Shown in pieces: positions 1-7,737 of a stretch of 7,737 nt of DNA. The DNA is from DASVDK01 sp036562265 [NCBI: Thermodesulfobacteriota bacterium]. GTDB lineage: Bacteria > DASVDK01. The position numbers were made by a program, and so were the translations under genes. Below the pieces are notes generated by a model. The model saw only the letters and a list, made by a program, of their open reading frames with translations. It did no database searches and had not been told where the DNA came from. Positions within the stretch are counted from its first letter, which is position 1. Every line of letters begins with the position of its first letter. The stretch spans positions 1-7,737 of the forward strand of contig DATCKS010000233.1 of the NCBI GenBank assembly GCA_036562265.1. Reading direction: 5' to 3'.

Positions 1-110
1 CCCTCGCCGTAGAACCGGCTGATGAAGCGGACCTTCGCGAGCAGGTCCTCGGCGGGGTACGCCGCGAAGTAGAACACGCTGTCCTTCTGTCGCACCCGGG
101 TCGCCAGCAT
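1..110 (-). CDS. DGQHR-domain (DndB-related) protein, N-terminal fragment
   Basis: The gene is cut by the left edge; only 36 codons from the ATG at 108-110 are visible. The start is supported by a GGGAGG Shine-Dalgarno (117-122) six bases upstream. The peptide opens MLATRVRQKDSVFYFAAYPA and continues with EDLLAKVRFISRFYGEG. From memory, this matches the N-terminus of DGQHR-domain proteins, where a short strand is followed by an 'xFYxxxYPAxxLLxxVRF' segment. That family includes DndB, the regulator of DNA phosphorothioation, but most members occur alone and have no known role. The diagnostic DGQHR residues would lie beyond the edge, so the family call rests on this short stretch only. It has its own promoter (201-230) and stands apart from the gamma-glutamyltransferase gene upstream, so I see it as a single transcription unit. 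That a coding region begins here is fairly certain; the family is moderately likely. Confidence 0.6.
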   Translation of the reverse strand, partial: MLATRVRQKDSVFYFAAYPAEDLLAKVRFISRFYGE

Positions 111-167
111 CCTCAGCCTCCCTCGGTCGATCGTCCCGCGACGCGCCGCCATCAGGTCGCACGACGA

Positions 168-188
168 CCCTGACGCCGGCTGTCAGGG
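168..188. repeat. Perfect 7-bp inverted repeat, operator-like
   Basis: CCCTGAC (168-174) and GTCAGGG (182-188) are exact inverted copies around a 7-nt centre, which itself contains the palindrome GCCGGC. The repeat lies about 6-26 nt downstream of the predicted transcription start of the DGQHR-like gene (about 194). That is a typical place for a repressor operator or an mRNA leader hairpin. No T-tract follows on either strand, so an intrinsic terminator is unlikely. The repeat is seen directly; the function is inferred. Confidence 0.4.
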
Positions 189-200
189 GACTGCCGGCCC

Positions 201-230
201 ATCCTACGGGCTCTCACGGCCCGGTGGCAA
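201..230 (-). promoter_or_regulatory. Sigma70-like promoter of the DGQHR-like gene
   Basis: Read on the minus strand, TTGCCA (225-230) is separated by 18 bp from TAGGAT (201-206). This matches the -35 consensus at 5 of 6 bases and the -10 consensus at 4 of 6. The predicted start of transcription is near 194, giving a leader of about 84 nt before the ATG at 110. It lies just past the stop codon of the gamma-glutamyltransferase gene, so the DGQHR-like gene need not depend on read-through. Confidence 0.5.
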
Positions 231-265
231 CCGTCGAGTCGGCGTGCAGGCGAGCGGCCGTGCGG

Positions 266-1918
266 TCAGGCCCACTCCGCGACGGCGTAGGTCTCGCGAC
301 GCGGGTCGGCGCCGGCCGTACGCAGGCCGGTGCGGGGGTCGACGCGGATCACCGAGGCGCCGCCGGTCGAGGCCGACCAGGGGTCGATGACCGAGACGGT
401 GTGCCCGCGCGCCCTGAGACCCTCGGCGGTCGCCTCGGGGAACCGCCCCTCGAGGACCACCTGGCCCATGCCGCCGGCGACGCCGCCGTACTCGCCGGCC
501 GGGTCGGCGTCGTGGCGCCACCGCGGCCGCTCGATGGCCTCCTGCGGCGAGGCGCCGAGGCGCAAGAGGGCGTCGAGGAGCTGCGCGAGCGTCTGGGGCT
601 GCGCGTGCGCGCCCGGCGTGCCGACGAGCGCCTCGAGGCGCCCCTCGGCGTCGAGGACCAGGGCCGGGCAGAGGGTGTGGAAGGGGCGCTTGCCGGGCGC
701 GAGGCGGTTCGGGTGGTCGGGTGTGAGCACGAAACCCGCCCCCCGGTTGTGCCAGATCACGCCGGTCTCGGGGTCGGCCACTGCCGAGCCGAAGCTCTGG
801 AAGAGGCTCTGCATGAGCGACACCCCCCGACCGCGCCGGTCGATGACGCAGAGGTAGGTCGTGTCGCCGCCGGTCGCGGCCTGGCCGAGCGCACCCGGCG
901 CGTAGCTCGCGGCCCGCTCGCGGTTCACCACCGCGCGGCGGCGGCGCACGTAGTCCTCGTCGAGGAGCGAGGAGGCGGGGGCCGGCATCGCGGCCGGGTC
1001 GGCGAGGTAGCGGTCCCGATCGGCGAAGGCGACCTTCTTCGCCTCCACCCAGAGATGCACCGCCTCGGCGCTGTCCCAGGACCAGCGGTCGAGGCCGAGC
1101 CCCTCGGCGATCCGCAAGAGGAGGAGCAGCGAGAGCCCGCTCGCGTTGGGCGCCATCCCGACCACGGTGCGCCCGGCGTAGGGCGCGGTGAGCGGCTCGA
1201 CCCAGTCGCTGCGGTGGGCGGCCAGGTCCTCCAGGGTCAGGAAGCCGCCGGTGCGCGCCGCGAAGGCGGCGAGCGCCCGCGCGACCCGACCGCGGTAGAA
1301 GGCCGAAGGCCCCTCGGCGATGATCGCGTCGAGCGTCGCGGCCAGCGCCGGCTGCACGAACCGCTCGCCGACGGCCGGCGGCCGGCCGTCGGGACGGAGG
1401 ATGGCGGCGAGGCCGGGGTCCTGCGGCGTCGTCGCGGCGATCGTCTCGGCGAGCCGCCGGTACATCGGGAAGCCGCGCGCGGCGAGTTCGCGCGCCGGCT
1501 GGAGCAACTCCGCAAGCGGCCGCGAGCCGAACCGGTCGAGGACGTCGGCCCAGGCGGCCAGGGCGCCCGGGACCGTCAGCGTCGCGACGTGCGGGCCGTG
1601 CACGGGGACGCGCGTCCGGTGGCCCCGCTCGGCGAGCGCCTCGGGAGTCGCCGCCGCCGCCGCCCGGCCGCTCCCGTTGAGCGTGGCGACGCTGCGGCGC
1701 TCCGGGTCGTAGACGAGGATGAACGCGTCGCCGCCAAGGCCGCACATGTGCGGCCGCAGCACGGTGAGGGCCGCGGCGGCCGCCACGGCCGCGTCGACCG
1801 CCCCGCCGCCCGTACGCAGCACGTCGAGGCCGATCTGGGCCGCCATCGGGTGTCCGGCAACGACGACACCGGCCTCCCCCACGATGTCCGGACGGAGCGG
1901 ATGGGGAAACTTCGTCAC
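266..1918 (-). CDS. ggt: Gamma-glutamyltransferase family protein (YwrD-like)
   Basis: This is a 550-residue Ntn-hydrolase precursor of about the usual length for the family. Gamma-glutamyltransferases cleave the gamma-glutamyl bond of glutathione and related amides, and mature by self-cleavage into two subunits. Numbering from the GTG at 1918, the early motif VVAGHPMAAQIGLDVLRTGG is typical. NGSGRA holds the substrate-carboxylate arginine (R85). GGDTTYLCVID carries the predicted nucleophile and cleavage site (T353). GTPGAHAQPQ stands where well-studied enzymes have the GSPGG oxyanion loop. No signal peptide is evident, so it is probably cytoplasmic like YwrD, and the physiological substrate is uncertain. 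The GTG start is chosen because GGAGGT sits five bases upstream and the 14 codons before it are unremarkable. An in-frame ATG at 1960 with AAGGGG eight bases upstream is the alternative (564 residues). No operon partner is visible. Confidence 0.93.
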   Translation of the reverse strand: MTKFPHPLRPDIVGEAGVVVAGHPMAAQIGLDVLRTGGGAVDAAVAAAAALTVLRPHMCGLGGDAFILVYDPERRSVATLNGSGRAAAAATPEALAERGHRTRVPVHGPHVATLTVPGALAAWADVLDRFGSRPLAELLQPARELAARGFPMYRRLAETIAATTPQDPGLAAILRPDGRPPAVGERFVQPALAATLDAIIAEGPSAFYRGRVARALAAFAARTGGFLTLEDLAAHRSDWVEPLTAPYAGRTVVGMAPNASGLSLLLLLRIAEGLGLDRWSWDSAEAVHLWVEAKKVAFADRDRYLADPAAMPAPASSLLDEDYVRRRRAVVNRERAASYAPGALGQAATGGDTTYLCVIDRRGRGVSLMQSLFQSFGSAVADPETGVIWHNRGAGFVLTPDHPNRLAPGKRPFHTLCPALVLDAEGRLEALVGTPGAHAQPQTLAQLLDALLRLGASPQEAIERPRWRHDADPAGEYGGVAGGMGQVVLEGRFPEATAEGLRARGHTVSVIDPWSASTGGASVIRVDPRTGLRTAGADPRRETYAVAEWA

Positions 1919-1972
1919 GGCGTACCTCCCGCGCGGGCCGCCGCTCCGGAGGGGCTCCATCGCATCGACCCC

Positions 1973-2001
1973 TTGCCAGGCGACCTGCGACCTAGTAGAG
2001 T
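1973..2001 (+). promoter_or_regulatory. Sigma70-like promoter of the 70-residue membrane protein gene
   Basis: TTGCCA (1973-1978) is followed after 17 bp by TAGAGT (1996-2001): 5 of 6 matches to the -35 and 4 of 6 to the -10, at ideal spacing. Transcription would begin near 2008, leaving a leader of about 40 nt before the TTG start at 2048. The -35 box lies just outside the longer possible start (1960) of the divergent gamma-glutamyltransferase gene, so the two genes share this short control region. Confidence 0.55.
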
Positions 2002-2047
2002 CGGCGCCCAGTCATCGCTCGGCCCGGCGGCCGGAAAGGAGCGCCCG

Positions 2048-2260
2048 TTGCTGTCCCAGATCGTCGTGTCGGTCGGTGCGGCCTACCTCACCGCGCTGGC
2101 CGTTGCCGTCCTCGTCGAGGTGACTCGGCCCCGCCCCCTGCGCGCGGTGCTCGCGGACATCCCCCGCCTCCTCCGCTACACGACGATGACCGTCGGCATC
2201 CTCGTCGCGACGCTCTGGTTCTACGCGTACCTGGGAATCGTGCCGTCGAAGCCGTTCTGA
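2048..2260 (+). CDS. Small membrane protein with two predicted helices (70 aa)
   Basis: I recognise no family. The 70-residue product has two hydrophobic segments, about residues 5-24 and 47-64, joined by a polar, arginine-rich loop (TRPRPLRAVLADIPRLLR). By the positive-inside rule, this loop should be cytoplasmic. The start is a TTG, chosen because AAGGAG (2036-2041) sits exactly six bases upstream and the first helix begins at once. The same frame stays open far upstream, but there it is only a shadow of the opposite-strand gene. A good promoter at 1973-2001 and G/C-rich third positions support a real gene. It diverges from the gamma-glutamyltransferase gene and converges on mrp, so its neighbours give no functional hint. 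Small two-helix proteins of this kind often belong to membrane complexes, but nothing here shows which. Confidence 0.72.
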   Translation: MLSQIVVSVGAAYLTALAVAVLVEVTRPRPLRAVLADIPRLLRYTTMTVGILVATLWFYAYLGIVPSKPF

Positions 2261-2279
2261 CGCTTCGACGTTGAGGCGA

Positions 2280-2332
2280 GAGACACCGGGGCATCGCCTG
2301 GCTCCTCAGCCGGGAGGCGCCTGCCCGGTCTC
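2280..2332. terminator. Imperfect hairpin between convergent genes, possible bidirectional terminator
   Basis: This hairpin lies in the 83-bp gap between the stop codons of two convergent genes. CCTGGCT (2297-2303) pairs with AGCCGGG (2308-2314) around a CCTC loop, with one G-T pair. Further out, GAGAC (2280-2284) pairs with GTCTC (2328-2332), and CCGG/GGCA pairs with TGCC/CGG with small bulges. No strong T-tract follows on either strand, as is common in G+C-rich genomes. The position suits a shared terminator; activity is inferred. Confidence 0.4.
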
Positions 2333-2343
2333 CCTCGGCCCCC

Positions 2344-3471
2344 CTACCCCTTGACCGGCAGCGACAGCGCGGACGCGACGGCGCGCGCGACCTCGACGAA
2401 CGCCTTCGCCGCGGCGGAGTTCGGCGCCGAGGCGACGACCGGCCGGCCGGCGTCGCCTCCCTGGCGAACCGCGGGGTCGATCGGGATGCTGCCGAGGAAG
2501 GGCACGTTCATCATCCGGGCCGACGCCTCGCCGCCTCCCGTGCCGAAGATGTCGGTCACCTCGCCGCAGTGGGGGCAGGCGAAGGTCGACATGTTCTCCA
2601 CGATCCCGAGGATGGGGACGCGGGTCTGCCGGAACATCATGAGGCCCCGCCGCGCGACCGTGGAGGCGGCGTCCTGGGGCGTCGTCACGATGATGGCGCC
2701 CGAGAGCGGCACGCGCTGCACGAGGGAGAGCTGCGCGTCGCCGGTGCCGGGCGGCATGTCGACGAGGAGCACGTCGAGGTTCCCCCACTCCACGTCGCGC
2801 AGGAACTGGTCGACGAGCCCCGCGACCATCGGGCCCCGCCAGATGACCGGCGTGTCCTCGTTCATGAAGAGACCGATCGAGATCGTGCGAACGCCGTAGG
2901 ACTCGGCCGGCGTGATGCGCCGCTCGCCGGCCACCTGCGGCCCGCGCCCCCCTTCCTGGCCCCCCTGCGCGCTCACGCCGAGCATGAGCGGAACGGACGG
3001 GCCGTAGACGTCGGCGTCCATCAGGCCGACCGCCAGGCCGAGGCGCGCCAGCGCGAGCGCCAGGTTCGCGGCCGCGGTCGACTTGCCGACGCCGCCCTTG
3101 CCGCTCGCGACGGCGACGACCCGCTTGACCCCGGCGAGCGACGGGGTCGGCTCGGGCGCGCCGAAGGGGCTTGCGCCGGCGGCCGGCGCCGCCGGGCCCG
3201 GCTGCGGCGCCCCGCCGGCCGCCGGCGGCCGCACCATGATCTCGACGTCCGTCACGCCGGGGACGGCGCGAACCGCCGTTTCAACCGAGGCCTGAATCTG
3301 CTTCGCGGTCGAGGGGTCCCTCGCCGTGACGGCGAGGAAGACGCGCACTCGCCCGCCGTCGATCTGGATGTCCTTGACCAGGCCGAACGACACGACGTCG
3401 CGAGAGAAGCCGGGATACTTGACCTGTCGTAGCGCCTCGCGCACCGCGTCGGGCGTCACTGCCTGGGGCAT
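2344..3471 (-). CDS. mrp: Mrp/ApbC/NBP35-family Fe-S cluster carrier ATPase
   Basis: This is a 375-residue cytoplasmic P-loop ATPase of the family that binds and transfers iron-sulfur clusters to apoproteins. Residues 5-80 form the N-terminal MIP18/DUF59 domain. Residues 83-108 are an Ala/Pro/Gly linker, and the rest is the MinD/Mrp ATPase. The deviant Walker A GKGGVGKS is at 124-131, DADVYGPS follows it, and VDMPPGTGD forms the switch/Walker B region. CPHC (C299, C302) supplies the two cysteines that bridge a [4Fe-4S] cluster between subunits of the dimer. The MIP18 part reads KYPGFSRDVV where many relatives have KDPE, a small departure. I start at the ATG at 3471 because GGAGGAGG lies 11 bases upstream and the protein then opens like its relatives. 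The in-frame ATG at 3507 has no ribosome site and would add 12 residues. The gene is monocistronic here and divergent from the SPFH operon. Confidence 0.95.
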   Translation of the reverse strand: MPQAVTPDAVREALRQVKYPGFSRDVVSFGLVKDIQIDGGRVRVFLAVTARDPSTAKQIQASVETAVRAVPGVTDVEIMVRPPAAGGAPQPGPAAPAAGASPFGAPEPTPSLAGVKRVVAVASGKGGVGKSTAAANLALALARLGLAVGLMDADVYGPSVPLMLGVSAQGGQEGGRGPQVAGERRITPAESYGVRTISIGLFMNEDTPVIWRGPMVAGLVDQFLRDVEWGNLDVLLVDMPPGTGDAQLSLVQRVPLSGAIIVTTPQDAASTVARRGLMMFRQTRVPILGIVENMSTFACPHCGEVTDIFGTGGGEASARMMNVPFLGSIPIDPAVRQGGDAGRPVVASAPNSAAAKAFVEVARAVASALSLPVKG

Positions 3472-3551
3472 GGTTGGTTGGGCCTCCTCCGAGTGGGTCT
3501 CTCCCATGATAGCGACCGGCGTCGCGCGCCATCCCGACTCCGTGACAGCGT

Positions 3552-3557
3552 TTTATA
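3552..3557 (-). promoter_or_regulatory. Possible -10 element for mrp
   Basis: The minus strand reads TATAAA here, inside the most A+T-rich patch of the window, and would start transcription near 3545, about 75 nt before the mrp ATG. No convincing -35 hexamer lies 16-18 bp upstream (the best is AGGTGT), so the assignment is weak. The site lies 14 bp from the -35 box of the strong plus-strand promoter, so the two polymerases could compete. Confidence 0.3.
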
Positions 3558-3571
3558 TCCGCCGACTCTGC

Positions 3572-3601
3572 TTGACACCTCTGTCGAGCGGCGCCTATAC
3601 T
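3572..3601 (+). promoter_or_regulatory. Strong sigma70-type promoter of the SPFH-Ycf46-Ycf35 operon
   Basis: A perfect -35 box, TTGACA (3572-3577), is separated by 18 bp from TATACT (3596-3601), which matches the -10 consensus at 5 of 6 bases. This is the closest match to consensus in the window, and it stands out against the G+C-rich background. Transcription would begin near 3608. The first well-supported gene downstream is the SPFH gene at 3948, so the transcript would have an untranslated leader of about 340 nt, or an RNA gene lies in between. Confidence 0.7.
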
Positions 3602-3607
3602 TCCGCG

Positions 3608-3947
3608 TAGTCGGGCATCGTGACCGCCGTCCGGTGCGCGGTTCGAGTGGGGTCGCTAGCCCCCGAGCGACGCGCGGTCGGGGAGCCTGGCTTCGCCGCG
3701 GGCGTGGGACGATGGGCGGCTTCTCCGGTGACGCCGAGCATACCGCCCTCCTCGTGGAACTGGTATACCGAGTCTCGAACCGAAAGTGCTCGTGGACGCA
3801 GAGGAACATCCCGCACGCACGGCTTGCTCCGCTCTACCTCCGCCAGCTTCTCTCGGCTCTCCGACCTCCGCCAGCGGCGCCCTCTGACGCGGGAATCCGT
3901 CGAAGGGCTCGGCTCTTGCACGGTTTCGACCCGCCAAGGGGTCACAG
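3608..3947 (+). promoter_or_regulatory. Long noncoding leader or small-RNA candidate upstream of the operon
   Basis: This stretch lies between the strong promoter and the SPFH start. Third-position G+C bias is weak in every frame and no tRNA, tmRNA, RNase P or SRP RNA signature is visible. It has pairing potential. CGGTTCGAG (3639-3647) is the exact reverse complement of CTCGAACCG (3774-3782), and CGTCC (3628-3632) with GGACG (3794-3798) can extend that closing stem. Inside lie GTCGCT/AGCGAC (3652-3657 with 3666-3671) and GGGCGG/CCGCCC (3714-3719 with 3743-3748), the latter with a nested CTC-GG/CCGAG helix. GGTATACC (3762-3769) is a palindrome. A stem-closed RNA of roughly 180 nt starting at the promoter would resemble a small RNA such as 6S in outline only; I see no conserved 6S sequence. 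It could equally be a regulatory 5' leader. Confidence 0.3.
3836..3875 (+). repeat. 12-bp direct repeat in the leader
   Basis: ACCTCCGCCAGC occurs exactly at 3836-3847 and again at 3864-3875, a period of 28 bp. A second short repeat, CTCGGCTCT, is at 3852-3860 and 3908-3916. Two identical 12-mers this close in noncoding DNA could be paired binding sites for a regulator or the trace of a small duplication. The spacing is not a whole number of helical turns (about 2.7). Confidence 0.35.
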
Positions 3948-4991
3948 ATGATCGTCCTGCTGCTCGTCATCCTCTTCTTCCTCACCCTGCTCCTGACCGT
4001 CTGGTCGGTGACGAGCCGCGGGCCGTCGCGCGGCGGGCCGGGAGCGCCTCGGGTCAACCCGGCACTCGGCTGGCTCCACGCCCGGCTGACCCTCCGCCGG
4101 GGCATCGTGGCCGGCCTCCTGCTCCTCGGCCTCCTCGTCGGCGCGGCGTCGCTCACGATCGTGCCGGCCGGGCACCGCGGCGTCGTCTTCAACGTCTTCC
4201 ACGGGGTTCGCCCGTGGGTCCTCGCCGACGGTCTCCACATCGTGAGCCCCCTCGTGAACCAGGTAACGATCTACGACGTGCGCTCGCAGACCTACTCGAT
4301 GGTCGCGGGCGGCGAGGACCCCGACCGCAAGGGGCAGAGCGACACGCTCTGGGCGCCGACGTCCGACGGCCTCAAGGTCGGCCTCGACGTGACCGTTCGG
4401 TTCCGACCCGACCCCGATCGCCTCCCCGATCTCCACGCCGCGGTCGGCCCCGAGTACCAGGAGAAGATCGTCCGCCCGCAGATCCGGAACATCACCCGCA
4501 TGGTGGTGTCCGAGTACGCGATCATGGACATCTACGGTCCGTCGCGCGCCGGCATCCAGCAGCAGATCTTCGACCGCCTGAAGGGCCGTTTCGCCGCCGA
4601 CGGCGTGGTACTCGAGGACGTCCTCCTCAGGAACGTCGCCGTCAGCCCCGACTTCGAGAAAGCGGTCGAGGCGAAGATGATGGCGGCGCAGAAAGTGCAG
4701 GAGATGGAGTTCCACGTCCAGCAGGCCCGCATGCGCGCCGAGGCGCGTCAGCGCGAGGCCGCTGGCGAGGCGGCCGCCTTCGAAACGGTCACGCGGACCA
4801 TCGAGCGCAATCCGCGGCTGCTCGAGTACCTCTGGATCAACAAGCTCGCCGGCAACGTCAAGATCCTCGTCGTGCCGAAGGGCCAGGAAGGGCTCATCCT
4901 GTCGCCGGGGCCCATCCTCTCGGAGGACGAGTCGCAGGACGGCGAGCGGACGGCGCGGGCCGAGCCCCGCGCACGCGGCGAGGGGCAGTGA
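3948..4991 (+). CDS. Prohibitin-like SPFH/band 7 membrane protein
   Basis: This 347-residue membrane protein is preceded by AAGGGG (3936-3941) six bases before the ATG. It has two hydrophobic helices, about residues 2-20 and 52-71, around a basic loop (24-51). The SPFH domain covers roughly 72-240. [17 protein letters not shown] and the following [18 protein letters not shown] closely resemble mitochondrial prohibitins. An alanine-, glutamate- and arginine-rich helix (about 237-276) should form the usual coiled coil, and a charged, disordered-looking tail ends the protein (325-347). SPFH proteins assemble into large rings or cages in membranes; HflK/HflC and prohibitins do so around FtsH-type AAA+ proteases. 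Here the next gene encodes an AAA+ protein and overlaps the stop by four bases (GTGA, 4988-4991), implying coupled synthesis and probable partnership. The second helix is unusual, since prohibitins usually have one anchor. Family certain; partner inferred. Confidence 0.92.
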
Positions 4992-6589
4992 CGATCTCGA
5001 ACGACGAACTCCGCTTCCTGATCCGGGCCTCCTACCCGATCATCTACATCGTGTCGGCCGAGGAGGCGCGCGTCGAGCACGCGCTGCGCCGCGAGGTGCT
5101 GCCCGGACTCGGCGGGGGGCCCGGGAACGAGAAACGGCTCATCACCTGGTCGATCACCGAGGGCTTCGCCGACCCGGCGCGCAGCGGCGCGTCGCCCGGC
5201 GCCGGCCCCGGGCCGGGCCGCGGCGACTCGCGCGACCCGCTCCGGGCCCTCGAACTGGTCGAGAAGTCGCCCGACCGCGCGGTCTTCCTCTTCCGCGACT
5301 TCCACCCGTACCTGCAGGACCCCACAGTCGTCCGCAAGCTGCGCGACCTGGCGCACAGTCTCAAGACGAGCCCGAAGACGCTCCTCATCCTCTCGCCCGT
5401 CCTCAAGATCCCGCCCGAGGTCGAGAAGGAGGTGGCGGTGGTCGAGTACGGGCTGCCGACGCTCGAGGACCTCGACCCGATCATGGAGGAGGTCATCGAG
5501 GCGGTCCGCGCCGAGGGGAAGGAGGACGTGCAGCTCGACCTCTCGCCCGCCGACCGGGAGGCGATGCTCTCGGCCGCCCTCGGCCTCACCGAGTCGGAGG
5601 CGCAGAACGTCTTCTCCAAGTCGCTCGTCCAGAAGCGCCGCTTCGACGTCGGGGTGATCCTCTCCGAGAAGGAGCAGATCATCCGCAAGTCGGGGATCCT
5701 CGAGTACTACCGCCACTCCGAGGCGTTCGAGGACGTGGGCGGTCTCGAGGCGCTCAAGACCTGGCTCGCCAAGCGGACGCGGGCCTTCACGAAGGAGGCC
5801 CGGGAGTTCGGCCTCCCGCAGCCGCGCGGCATCCTCCTCATCGGCGTGCCGGGCTGCGGCAAGTCGCTGACGGCCAAGGCGGTCGGCCAGCTCTGGCGCC
5901 TGCCGATCCTCAGGCTCGACGTGGGGAAGGTCTTCGCGGGGCTCGTCGGGTCGTCCGAGGAGAACATGCGCAAGGCCATCCGGACGGCCGAGGCGGTGGC
6001 GCCGGCCATCCTCTGGCTCGACGAGCTCGAGAAGGGCTTCTCGGGCACGCAGTCCTCGGGCGTGTCGGACGGCGGGACCACCGCGCGCGTCTTCGGGTCG
6101 TTCGTCACCTGGCTGCAGGAGAAGACGAGCCCCGTCTTCGTCATCGCCACCGCCAACAACGTCTCGCTCCTCCCTCCCGAACTCCTGCGAAAGGGACGCT
6201 TCGACGAGATCTTCTTCGTCGACCTCCCGACGCTCGAGGAGCGCGAGTCGATCATCCGCATCCACCTCGAGAAGCGCGGCCGGGACCCGGAGCGCTTCGA
6301 GTTGACGGAGCTTGCCGTCTACTCGGAGGGCTTCAGCGGCGCCGAGATCGAGCAGGCGATCGTGTCGGCGCTCTACGACGCCTTCGACGAGGGGGCCAGA
6401 CCACTGACGACGGCCGACATCCGTGCGAGCTTCGAGGAAACGGTGCCCCTGTCGCAGACCATGAGCGAGGAGATCGCGGAACTGCGGGAGTGGGCGAGCC
6501 GGCGCGCACGGCCGGCCTCGGCGATCACGCGCCGACGCACGGCCTCGAACGGCGGGGAGCCGCGTCGGGCCCGTCAGCTCGATCTCTGA
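4988..6589 (+). CDS. Ycf46-type AAA+ ATPase
   Basis: This is a 533-residue AAA+ protein without a protease domain. Residues 1-245 form the N-terminal part typical of Ycf46; it opens [20 protein letters not shown] and looks like a degenerate nucleotide-binding fold with no P-loop. The classic AAA module follows. Walker A is GVPGCGKS (286-293, K292), a pore-loop-like VFAGLVG lies at 315-321, and Walker B is ILWLDE (341-346, D345/E346). Sensor 1 asparagines are N390/N391. RKGRFDE (401-407) carries the arginine fingers, and FSGAEIEQ (449-456) begins the small helical domain. The last 30 residues are arginine-rich. A Gly/Pro insert at 62-82 is probably a loop. In cyanobacteria Ycf46 has been linked to inorganic-carbon use and stress responses; its substrate is unknown to me. 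The GTG start overlaps the SPFH stop (GTGA), with a short GAGG site upstream. The same frame is open to 3620, but that stretch is a shadow of the SPFH gene. Confidence 0.93.
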
Positions 6590-6608
6590 CGCGAGAGGAG
6601 CGAGAACC

Positions 6609-6998
6609 ATGTCCCACTTCACGACCGTCAAGACGAAGATCACGGACCTCGACGCGCTCCGGGCGGCGCTGGCGGACCTCGGCTACGCGGTCGTCGAGGG
6701 CGAGACGCAGATCCGCGGCTGGCGCAACACGTCCCAGTCGGTCGACATCGCGGCGCGACTCGGCGCCTTCGACATCGGGTTCCGCCGCGGCGCCGACGGC
6801 ACGTACGACGCCGTCGCCGACTGGTGGGGCGTCAAGACGTACGAGGGGCTCTCGCAGGCCGACTTCATGCGGCGGGTGACCCAGCGCTACGCCTACCACA
6901 AGGTCATCGGCGAGGCGAGCCGCCAGGGCTACACCGTCGTGGAAGAGCAGAACGAGGCGGACCAGTCGATCCGCCTGGTCGTGCGGCGATGGGCATGA
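6609..6998 (+). CDS. DUF1257/Ycf35-family protein
   Basis: This 129-residue protein covers the whole family length. Family hallmarks are the opening MSHFTTVKTKITDLDALRAA, the LGYxVxE segment, the glycine-rich strand RGADGTYDAVADWWGV (60-75), TQRYAYHKV (91-99) and the closing IRLVVRRW. Ycf35 was first named from red-algal plastid genomes and is widespread in cyanobacteria; its biochemical role is unknown to me. It is small, soluble and has no signal peptide or membrane helix. An AGAGGAG ribosome site (6594-6600) lies eight bases before the ATG, 19 bp after the ATPase stop. It is followed after only four bases by the DUF2997 gene, a pairing I recall as common for these families. Placement next to a Ycf46-type ATPase suggests an adaptor, substrate or regulator for it, but this is inference. 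Confidence 0.93.
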   Translation: MSHFTTVKTKITDLDALRAALADLGYAVVEGETQIRGWRNTSQSVDIAARLGAFDIGFRRGADGTYDAVADWWGVKTYEGLSQADFMRRVTQRYAYHKVIGEASRQGYTVVEEQNEADQSIRLVVRRWA

Positions 6999-7002
6999 TC
7001 GA

Positions 7003-7221
7003 ATGACCGCGCGCAAGCAGGAGATCGAGGTCACCATCTCGCCCGACGGGCAGGTGAGCCTGCGACCGAAGGGGGCGAAGGGCGCCGACTGCCTGGACCT
7101 CACGCGCGCCATCGAGCAGGCGGTGGGCGAGGTGGAGCGGCGCGAGTTCACCTCCGAGTACTACGAGCGGGGTGTCGGCATCGATGCGCACGTGCGCGGG
7201 CGGTCCGGCGGCGAGGCGTAG
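7003..7221 (+). CDS. DUF2997-family small protein
   Basis: This 72-residue soluble protein matches DUF2997 in length and pattern. A strand-forming N-terminus with a turn (EIEVTISPDGQVSLRPKG, 7-24) is followed by the conserved cysteine in GADCLDLT (C30), a helix (TRAIEQAVGEVERR) and the EYYE motif (52-55). The function of the family is unknown to me. The ATG lies four bases after the DUF1257 stop with no strong ribosome site, so translation is probably coupled to DUF1257. An ATG at 6995 that overlaps that stop leads straight to a stop codon and is not used. The tail (residues 60-72) is glycine- and arginine-rich. Its codons double as the start of the next gene, which overlaps by 38 bases. The two small proteins may form a complex and serve the ATPase; this is inferred from linkage only. 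Confidence 0.88.
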   Translation: MTARKQEIEVTISPDGQVSLRPKGAKGADCLDLTRAIEQAVGEVERREFTSEYYERGVGIDAHVRGRSGGEA

Positions 7222-7737
7222 AGGCTCACTCGTCGCCCTCTGGCTCGGCCTCCTGCTGGGAATCGCCGGGCCGACTCCGGCTCGCGCCGACGAGCCGGCA
7301 GCCGCGCAGGTGACCGTCGAAACCGTGTGGCCCCCGCCCGGCGCCAGGCTCGCCGCGCCGCTGGCCGGTCCCTCCGCCGTGGCGGTCGACCGCGCCGGTC
7401 GCGTCTGGGTGGCCGAGCCGCAGGCCGACCGCGTGATCCGGTTGCCCGACCGGGCGGCCAGTACTCCTCGCGTCGCCACACCGGAAGGGGCGCTGCGCCG
7501 CCCTCTGGGTCTCGCCGCCGCCCCCGACGGCACCCTCCTCGTCGCCGACACCGGCAACCACCGGATCGTCCGCCTCGCGCCCGACGGGCGGATCGTCGCC
7601 ACCTACGGCGGGCCGGGCGACGACCCCGGCGAGTTCGAGCGGCCGGCCGCCGTCGCCGCGGCGCCCGACGGCACCTTCCTGGTCGCCGACACCGGCAACC
7701 ACCGCGTCCAGCGACTCGACGCGGCCGGGCGGCCCCT
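7184..7737 (+). CDS. Exported NHL-repeat beta-propeller protein, N-terminal part
   Basis: This gene runs off the right edge; 184 codons are visible. The first 35 residues form a signal peptide, with an arginine-rich start (AARRRGS), a hydrophobic core (LVALWLGLLLGIAG) and a probable signal-peptidase site after A35 (ARA before DE). NHL repeats follow, with motifs such as SAVAVDRAGRVWVAE, LLVADTGNHRIVRL and FLVADTGNHRVQRL. These form blades of a beta-propeller, usually a protein- or ligand-binding platform. The product should be periplasmic or extracellular. The ATG at 7184 lies within the DUF2997 gene, 38 bases before its stop and in another frame, with only a weak GGGG upstream; a GTG at 7172 is an alternative. 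The overlap places it in the operon, though read-through of an unrelated gene is possible. The C-terminus, which could add an enzyme or anchor domain, is not visible. Confidence 0.85.
   Translation, partial: MRTCAGGPAARRRGSLVALWLGLLLGIAGPTPARADEPAAAQVTVETVWPPPGARLAAPLAGPSAVAVDRAGRVWVAEPQADRVIRLPDRAASTPRVATPEGALRRPLGLAAAPDGTLLVADTGNHRIVRLAPDGRIVATYGGPGDDPGEFERPAAVAAAPDGTFLVADTGNHRVQRLDAAGRP
7523..7704 (+). repeat. Near-identical NHL-blade DNA repeat, 141-bp period
   Basis: The 41 bp at 7523-7563 recur at 7664-7704 with two visible differences. They encode PDGTLLVADTGNHR and PDGTFLVADTGNHR, so one repeat unit is 47 residues. Such DNA-level identity between adjacent blades suggests recent duplication or gene conversion within the propeller. 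Confidence 0.75.

Follow-up and report, generated by a model that had tools for sequence, protein, structure and literature searches.

A conserved AAA+, DUF1257 and DUF2997 gene trio in a five-gene locus of DASVDK01 sp036562265: a possible protein-remodeling core

Results

A compact locus of five genes

We analyzed a 7,737-nucleotide stretch of DNA (contig DATCKS010000233.1, positions 1 to 7,737 of the forward strand, assembly GCA_036562265.1) from DASVDK01 sp036562265, listed by NCBI as a Thermodesulfobacteriota bacterium; this whole stretch is referred to below as the window. It carries five plus-strand open reading frames that encode, in this order, an SPFH protein, an AAA+ ATPase, a DUF1257 (Ycf35) protein, a DUF2997 protein and an exported NHL protein. 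These five family assignments had been made in an original prediction from the sequence, and each is backed by a Pfam match:

3948..4991, plus strand: prohibitin-like SPFH/Band_7 protein, 347 amino acids (Pfam PF01145, E 1.4e-33; hydropathy)
4988..6589, plus strand: Ycf46-type double-AAA+ ATPase, 533 amino acids, GTG start (Pfam AAA, E 5e-27, plus AAA_lid_3)
6609..6998, plus strand: DUF1257 (Ycf35) protein, 129 amino acids (Pfam PF06868, E 1.8e-28)
7003..7221, plus strand: DUF2997 protein, 72 amino acids, with an invariant Cys (Pfam PF11211, E 1.1e-19)
7184..7737, plus strand: exported NHL beta-propeller protein, ATG at 7184, cut by the window end (Pfam NHL, E 5.2e-22)

The spacings given in that prediction proved exact on re-reading: the SPFH and AAA+ genes overlap by 4 bases (4988-4991), a 19-base gap (6590-6608) separates the AAA+ and DUF1257 genes, a 4-base gap (6999-7002) follows between DUF1257 and DUF2997, and the DUF2997 and NHL genes overlap by 38 bases (7184-7221). 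Third-position GC is 0.90-0.97 across the five genes. The SPFH protein passes PF01145 with 116.9 bits against a gathering score of 23.6. No model named Ycf46 surfaced in Pfam or NCBIfam scans of the window proteins, and we use this label for the AAA+ protein as a name that presumably applies.

The AAA+, DUF1257 and DUF2997 genes form a conserved unit

To place the window genes among their relatives, we tabulated 151 DUF1257 loci plus the window with profiles built for this analysis, from samples that lie outside the window's own phylum. Flanking DNA was taken for all DUF1257 places of the first Myxococcota, Desulfobacterota and Planctomycetota samples and of the sample from the phylum of genome G010, and for 20 cyanobacterial and 20 further Myxococcota places; flank lengths vary between loci, and phylum labels follow the centre genome of each search. 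A contig scan with the window DUF1257 protein gave 21 loci. Three loci (L099-L101) were removed before tabulation as copies of L015, L019 and L020.

A trio was scored where an AAA+ gene lay within 3.5 kb and a DUF2997 gene within 2.5 kb of DUF1257, all on the same strand, as they do in the window. Profile scans of the flanking DNA found this arrangement in 60/62 Myxococcota, 24/27 Desulfobacterota and 19/21 Planctomycetota loci, in 4/11 loci of the G010 phylum and in 5/30 cyanobacterial loci. The order AAA+ - DUF1257 - DUF2997 thus recurs in five phylum-level samples, far beyond chance, and the linkage holds well outside this genome, as the original prediction had proposed to check with such a table.

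In samples of whole genomes, Pfam DUF1257 was found in 32/140 Myxococcota genomes (72/282 in a larger sample), 24/247 Desulfobacterota, 20/246 Planctomycetota, 7/149 G010-phylum and 58/117 Cyanobacteriota genomes. DUF2997 is present in 32/32 Myxococcota genomes with DUF1257 (one further genome matches below the family cut-off) and in 23/24 of their Desulfobacterota counterparts, plus six other Desulfobacterota genomes, two of them below cut-off. The AAA+ protein was detected in every DUF1257 genome of both groups (32/32 and 24/24; profile of alignment A2, E up to 1e-70). The Fisher tests applied to this co-occurrence ignore kinship.

DUF2997 is present in 15 of the 30 cyanobacterial loci, and 9 of these 15 also have a ferredoxin gene. 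This DUF2997-DUF1257-ferredoxin arrangement is published for Synechocystis as cluster g (PMC4284462; papers identified by PMC number are cited throughout from parts of their text). In other cyanobacterial loci (L095, L253 and L255), an AAA+ gene adjoins DUF1257.

Three Desulfobacterota loci (L289, L291 and L292) hold an AAA+ gene with diverged DUF1257 and DUF2997 copies that are missed at Pfam level, together with a radical-SAM gene and an Hsp70-like gene. A second type of trio, seen in L187-L190 and L299, has a DUF3150 protein downstream (Pfam on L189), and its AAA+ proteins are set apart by long tree branches.

The AAA+ protein resembles a double-AAA protein with a degenerate first domain

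We next considered the AAA+ protein, which comprises a degenerate D1-like N-terminal half (residues ~1-235) and an intact second AAA+ domain (~246-507). Sequence inspection found no Walker A motif in the first half of the window protein, and only 2/158 relatives have one in their first 230 residues. In the second domain, the Walker A K and S are present in 158/158 relatives, the Walker B D in 157 and E in 156, and the sensor-1 N and one Arg finger R in 157/158 each; the window protein carries the corresponding G286, K292, S293, D345, E346, N390 and R404.

An AlphaFold model built from 12 sequences has a mean predicted local distance difference test score (pLDDT) of 70.5, with values mostly of 79-92 over residues 1-230 apart from a loop dip near 61-80. 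Its residues 1-507 align with D1+D2 of p97/Afg2 (Z ~18; Foldseek E 3e-18) at a root-mean-square deviation (rmsd) of 7-10, a high value that presumably reflects a different placement of the two domains; the D2 domain by itself aligns with Z 17.6 and rmsd 3.3 over 254 residues. Since the predicted fold has two AAA domains, the second-domain motifs are kept and the first-half Walker A is lost, the best reading is a probable double-AAA protein whose first domain has degenerated.

It shares 56-60% identity with the Myxococcota rows of alignment A2 (best 60% over 494 columns). A tree made by a quick method places it in one group with 53 Myxococcota and 8 Planctomycetota rows, with Shimodaira-Hasegawa-like approximate likelihood ratio (SH-aLRT) support of 89, below the 95 mark. 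Within this tree it sits on a long branch of its own, so the window may belong to a phylum outside our samples. Pfam detected no protease domain in the protein, and its hydropathy profile has no hydrophobic segment over threshold. An FtsH-like identity was considered and rejected, as neither an M41 protease domain nor a transmembrane segment was found by these methods.

At locus L010 (6881-9097), just upstream of DUF1257, the AAA+ protein carries a Ser/Thr kinase domain (PF00069, E 8.5e-26) as an N-terminal fusion.

DUF1257 has no clear solved relative, and DUF2997 keeps an invariant Cys

The DUF1257 protein is modeled confidently (pLDDT 92, predicted template modeling score 0.84) as an alpha+beta fold. 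It has no Foldseek match at E 0.001, and its best VIA comparison is middling (Z 6.8, rmsd 3.3, 78 aligned), with no clear solved relative. In DUF2997, one Cys and one Gly are invariant in 134/134 aligned sequences, the window included. This Cys, together with the ferredoxin and radical-SAM neighbors found in other lineages, may leave room for a redox or thiol role. A candidate DUF1257-DUF2997 fusion in L208, at first sight a single open frame, was rejected: the N-terminus of DUF1257 proved to lie in another frame, and we therefore did not use this locus as evidence of contact between the two proteins.

The pair is also found in phages. Cyanophage P-SSM2, a Prochlorococcus phage, carries DUF2997 followed by DUF1257 (L309, 3802-4381), and 11 phage records contain DUF1257. 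A scan of viral contigs with the DUF1257 alignment found no relative, though phage records do match.

Different neighbors accompany the trio in different lineages

We then asked which genes lie beside the trio, counting same-strand profile matches within 6.5 kb, some of which are weak. In Myxococcota, 51/62 loci have a gene for an FHA domain and a long coiled coil directly upstream of the AAA+ gene (FHA domain confirmed on L004, E 5.3e-20), and 47/62 have a downstream protein without a Pfam match. An Hsp70-like protein is encoded in 14/27 Desulfobacterota, 4/11 G010-phylum and 2/30 cyanobacterial loci; its identity is backed by PF00012 on L162 (E 8.9e-17), and the Desulfobacterota form on L185 falls just below cut-off. 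Pentapeptide-repeat proteins are found in 9/21 Planctomycetota loci, and radical-SAM/4Fe-4S activases in 7/11 loci of the G010 phylum, in part by weak matches.

GrpE joins Hsp70 in some cyanobacteria. Pseudanabaena plasmid pPg_01 (L310, 3864-12021) encodes GrpE, Hsp70, DUF1257, an ATP-binding protein, an unknown protein, DUF2997, the AAA+ protein and a WD40 protein, in this order, and in two further cyanobacterial loci (L248 and L260) GrpE precedes Hsp70 near the DUF1257, DUF2997 and AAA+ genes. Because Hsp70 and GrpE adjoin these genes in three loci, the role in protein quality control suggested earlier is plausible. More generally, the chaperone, phosphopeptide and scaffold neighbors would fit a remodeling core that is recruited in different ways.

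Plasmids of Paenarthrobacter, Rhodococcus and Paenibacillus also have radical-SAM/4Fe-4S activase genes next to their copies (identified by Pfam on the Paenibacillus plasmid); the DUF1257 matches on the first two plasmids are weak (E 6e-4 and 7e-5). On Treponema succinifaciens plasmid pTRESU01 (L301, L308), an AAA+ relative with 56% identity has a radical-SAM/4Fe-4S gene and a baseplate gene as neighbors, and a contractile-tail gene cluster of the same plasmid includes a DUF1257 gene. In one Planctomycetota trio, a PspA/IM30 gene is located upstream of the AAA+ gene at a distance of about 1.6 kb (L202, 6949-7701, minus strand). A PspA link was not retained as a general rule for the trio, as this is the single locus that has it.

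The SPFH and NHL genes lie outside the conserved unit

The window differs from all of these loci in having an SPFH gene. At a permissive cut-off (E 0.05), the SPFH profile detected an SPFH gene in the flanking DNA of 0/151 other loci; in 84 of these, the AAA+ gene directly precedes DUF1257 and the upstream DNA extends over at least 3.5 kb. Detections were likewise 0/40 in further AAA+ loci of the same family, drawn from the Myxococcota and Desulfobacterota genomes and chosen for having no Pfam-level DUF1257 neighbor (five proved to hold diverged copies), and 0/7 in plasmid loci. The profile was built from the window protein and its relatives, and a very divergent SPFH protein could escape it; it matches 9/10 SPFH loci that also helped to build it, which is not an independent control. 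SPFH relatives do exist elsewhere in such genomes, 10/16 of which have a match to the window protein (E 0.01, 23-35% identity). The NHL gene was seen only in the window among ~110 loci scanned (L001-L021, L062-L101, L161-L213).

SPFH therefore falls outside the conserved unit, and the membership of SPFH and NHL in the operon rests on tight spacing in a single sequence. The original prediction had combined a prohibitin-like scaffold with a non-proteolytic AAA+ motor and two small conserved proteins. The latter part stands, with a conserved trio and no protease or transmembrane domain detected in the motor. The scaffold as the defining partner does not, given its lack in the 151 DUF1257, 40 other AAA+ and 7 plasmid loci, a survey in which the window's phylum is unsampled. 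On the refuting condition that came with the prediction, linkage confined to this genome or its close relatives, the loci covered speak against SPFH and for the trio.

By sequence, the closest solved structures to the SPFH protein are prohibitins (E 1.3e-23). It is not an HflK or HflC according to NCBIfam (20.7 bits for HflK, cut-off 159.4; 19.1 bits for HflC, cut-off 134.4). Hydropathy analysis marks two N-terminal hydrophobic segments, at residues 1-19 and 53-71, and the loop between them (22-52) has six K+R and no D+E. By the positive-inside rule, this loop is probably cytoplasmic and the SPFH domain probably outside the cytoplasm; HflK/HflC and prohibitins likewise carry their SPFH domain outside. 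A downstream GTG (Val21), taken as an alternative start, predicts the same side. The NHL protein, as read from its sequence, has a signal-like N-terminus ending ARA-D. By the positive-inside rule, the propeller too is predicted to lie outside the cytoplasm, and the AAA+ motor inside.

The operon starts from a divergent intergenic region

Upstream of the five genes we identified the following features:

3572..3601, plus strand: candidate sigma-70-like promoter, TTGACA, 18, TATACT (consensus match only, 11/12)
266-1960, minus strand: gamma-glutamyltransferase gene, divergent from the operon (family scan of window proteins)
2344-3507, minus strand: Mrp/NBP35-type gene, divergent from the operon (family scan of window proteins)

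With these two minus-strand genes upstream, the intergenic region from which the operon starts is divergent and spans 440 bases (3508-3947). The candidate promoter lies within it, 346 bases before the SPFH start, and points at the operon; one such match was observed against a shuffle mean of 0.1. Rfam found no match in the window.

Discussion

Comparison with known systems

Ycf46 and Ycf35 are best known as proteins of cyanobacteria and plastids. The window DUF1257 protein belongs to the same Pfam family as Ycf35, and cyanobacterial AAA+ genes that adjoin DUF1257 (L095, L253 and L255) fall in the same tree as the window AAA+ gene; the sequence of Synechocystis Ycf46 (slr0374) itself is not among them. 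Unlike the window gene, cyanobacterial DUF1257 is often accompanied by DUF2997 and a ferredoxin gene and seldom by an AAA+ gene. In red algal plastids, ycf35 and ycf46 have been linked to habitat (PMC5940233). Synechocystis ycf35 belongs to the SigD regulon and is SigD-dependent in heat and high light (PMC8875361), and Ycf35 rises under copper/iron reduction (PMC8141849). The slr0374 operon responds to iron and other stresses (PMC7496141), and the same paper cites Jiang et al., 2015 for an effect of slr0374 on carbonic anhydrase.

With Cdc48/p97 and Afg2, the window AAA+ protein shares tandem AAA+ domains, intact second-domain motifs and, by model, a structural match over the whole chain. It differs from them in lacking a first-domain ATP site and an N-terminal cofactor domain (the alignment starts at p97 residue 209), in being bacterial and in having DUF1257 and DUF2997 as partners. 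A PspA-associated protein with two AAA+ domains, of which the N-terminal copy is inactive, has been described (PMC11237479), where it is not named Ycf46; its architecture is the same, as likened from that description. A PspA/IM30 gene lies near the L202 trio, but Pfam found no PspA/IM30 or Snf7 family among the seven proteins of the window.

As in HflK/HflC-FtsH and prohibitin-m-AAA, an SPFH protein is encoded beside an AAA+ protein in the window, but this AAA+ protein has no detected transmembrane segment or M41 protease, and its SPFH neighbor is not HflK/HflC by NCBIfam. Band-7 operons with AAA+ genes of other kinds have been described (PMC11237479); a literature search on SPFH genes in AAA ATPase gene neighborhoods found no description. 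PADLOC returned only partial IetA (E 3.8e-23) and TRIP13 matches for the AAA+ protein. We do not assign it to IetAS, since it scores 69.6 bits with the NCBIfam IetA model against a cut-off of 510 and Pfam found no protease partner among the operon's five proteins. Chaperone-based conflict systems are also known (PMC7159879, PMC8195603), including an Hsp70/GrpE type (PMC7159879). In the parts of the literature that we searched, we found no proposal that AAA+, DUF1257 and DUF2997 proteins act together as a unit, and no biochemical work on the trio.

A possible remodeling core with exchangeable recruiters

We see an even chance that the AAA+, DUF1257 and DUF2997 proteins form an ATP-driven remodeling core with interchangeable, lineage-specific recruiters, of which the SPFH protein, at the membrane, would be the one used in the window. 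Gene order, co-occurrence, the intact and lost motifs and, by model, the two-AAA architecture are the directly supported part of this proposal. We infer ring assembly, unfoldase activity and the adaptor roles, as well as whatever physical part SPFH or NHL may play. The AAA+ protein would form a Cdc48-like double ring, with the first AAA+ domain, its ATP site lost, as the platform and the second domain carrying out the work. The core would then act as a protein-remodeling machine, similar to an unfoldase or segregase, with DUF1257 and DUF2997 as small partners, either adaptors or regulators. A lineage-specific neighbor would bring this machine to its substrate: the FHA/coiled-coil protein in Myxococcota and the Hsp70-like protein (with GrpE in some cyanobacteria) elsewhere. 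In the window, the prohibitin-like SPFH protein would be the recruiter and the membrane the workplace.

Several observations weigh against this proposal. The AAA+ model is of moderate confidence; its pLDDT falls to ~55-70 over residues 231-410, where the second domain starts, and is again mostly 74-91 over 411-490. The AAA+ protein is not always accompanied by the DUF1257/DUF2997 pair, an idea that we considered and found to be false: it occurs in 100/140 Myxococcota and 51/247 Desulfobacterota genomes, many of them without the pair. As only 32 of those Myxococcota genomes have DUF1257, the pair must be dispensable for some functions of the AAA+ family. Cyanobacterial DUF1257 genes are mostly apart from an AAA+ gene, as the 5/30 trios indicate. 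The SPFH-AAA+ pairing is a single example with no replicate in the other loci scanned, and one SPFH neighbor in ~200 loci has, in our judgement and without a computed value, little statistical weight; what speaks for coupling in the window is that the two genes overlap. Finally, an SPFH domain predicted outside and a motor inside the cytoplasm count against a simple direct contact between the two.

The alternatives that we considered are partly compatible with one another. SPFH and NHL could be co-transcribed passengers in this lineage, with no physical role in an AAA+ - DUF1257 - DUF2997 machine, an explanation that we find credible if on balance doubtful. It agrees with the failure to find SPFH beside the trio or beside related AAA+ genes at 151 + 40 + 7 other loci, with the NHL gene being confined to the window among ~110 loci, and with a topology in which the positive-inside rule puts the SPFH domain outside the cytoplasm and the NHL protein begins with a signal-like N-terminus. 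However, the 4-base SPFH/AAA+ and 38-base NHL overlaps suggest translational coupling, the negative loci come from outside the window's phylum, and Myxococcota keep a coiled-coil scaffold gene just upstream of AAA+, which argues that this slot is not random in all lineages. The original prediction favored a direct SPFH-AAA+ membrane quality-control complex, by analogy to HflKC-FtsH or prohibitin-m-AAA. The SPFH protein is indeed prohibitin-like, its gene overlaps the AAA+ gene, and other Band-7/AAA+ operons are on record (PMC11237479). Yet with no transmembrane segment or protease domain detected in the AAA+ protein, an SPFH domain that is probably across the membrane from the motor, an SPFH score of 20.7 against the HflK cut-off of 159.4, and no second example in the loci scanned, we think such a complex decidedly unlikely.

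The function of the core could also be a different one. In a redox or iron-sulfur system, the DUF2997 Cys would, together with a 4Fe-4S partner, undergo modification or readout, and remodeling of the modified target would fall to the AAA+ protein. This would suit a Cys kept in 134/134 sequences, the 4Fe-4S ferredoxin beside DUF2997-DUF1257 in 9/30 cyanobacterial loci (cluster g, PMC4284462), the radical-SAM/4Fe-4S activase genes that neighbor both the trio of other lineages and the copies on plasmids, and the response of Ycf35, ycf35 and the slr0374 operon to copper/iron, SigD and stress (PMC8141849, PMC8875361, PMC7496141). We nevertheless regard it as unlikely, because Pfam found no Fe-S partner among the window operon genes, a radical-SAM family member lies near only 1/62 Myxococcota loci, and the conservation of the Cys may have a structural reason. 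A conflict system, anti-phage or other, with the AAA+ motor as its basis seems quite improbable to us. The patchy distribution across the genomes sampled, the plasmid copies near RloB, toxin and integrase genes, IetA as the closest PADLOC model (E 3.8e-23) and the known conflict systems with Hsp70/GrpE (PMC7159879) all point in its direction; on the other side, the IetA match covers the AAA+ domain only (69.6 bits against 510), no effector or nuclease was found by Pfam among the seven window proteins scanned, the cyanobacterial genes are stress-regulated (PMC8141849, PMC8875361, PMC7496141) and the red algal ones reside in the plastid (PMC5940233).

Implications

Returning to the remodeling core, its broadest form is that of a widespread and hitherto undescribed bacterial Cdc48-like machine with plug-in recruiters, of which the cyanophage and plastid copies would be scattered pieces and the window the membrane-scaffold version; we rate this a little short of an even prospect. 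If the SPFH protein does recruit the motor here, the result would be a soluble, non-proteolytic counterpart of FtsH-HflKC. Ycf46 and Ycf35 still carry the label of hypothetical chloroplast frames. That their genes and DUF2997 make up a single conserved unit in phyla without photosynthesis, with Hsp70/GrpE, FHA or SPFH genes next to it, would turn them into a testable protein-remodeling machine, and it offers non-photosynthetic hosts in which the Ycf46/Ycf35 unit can be tested.

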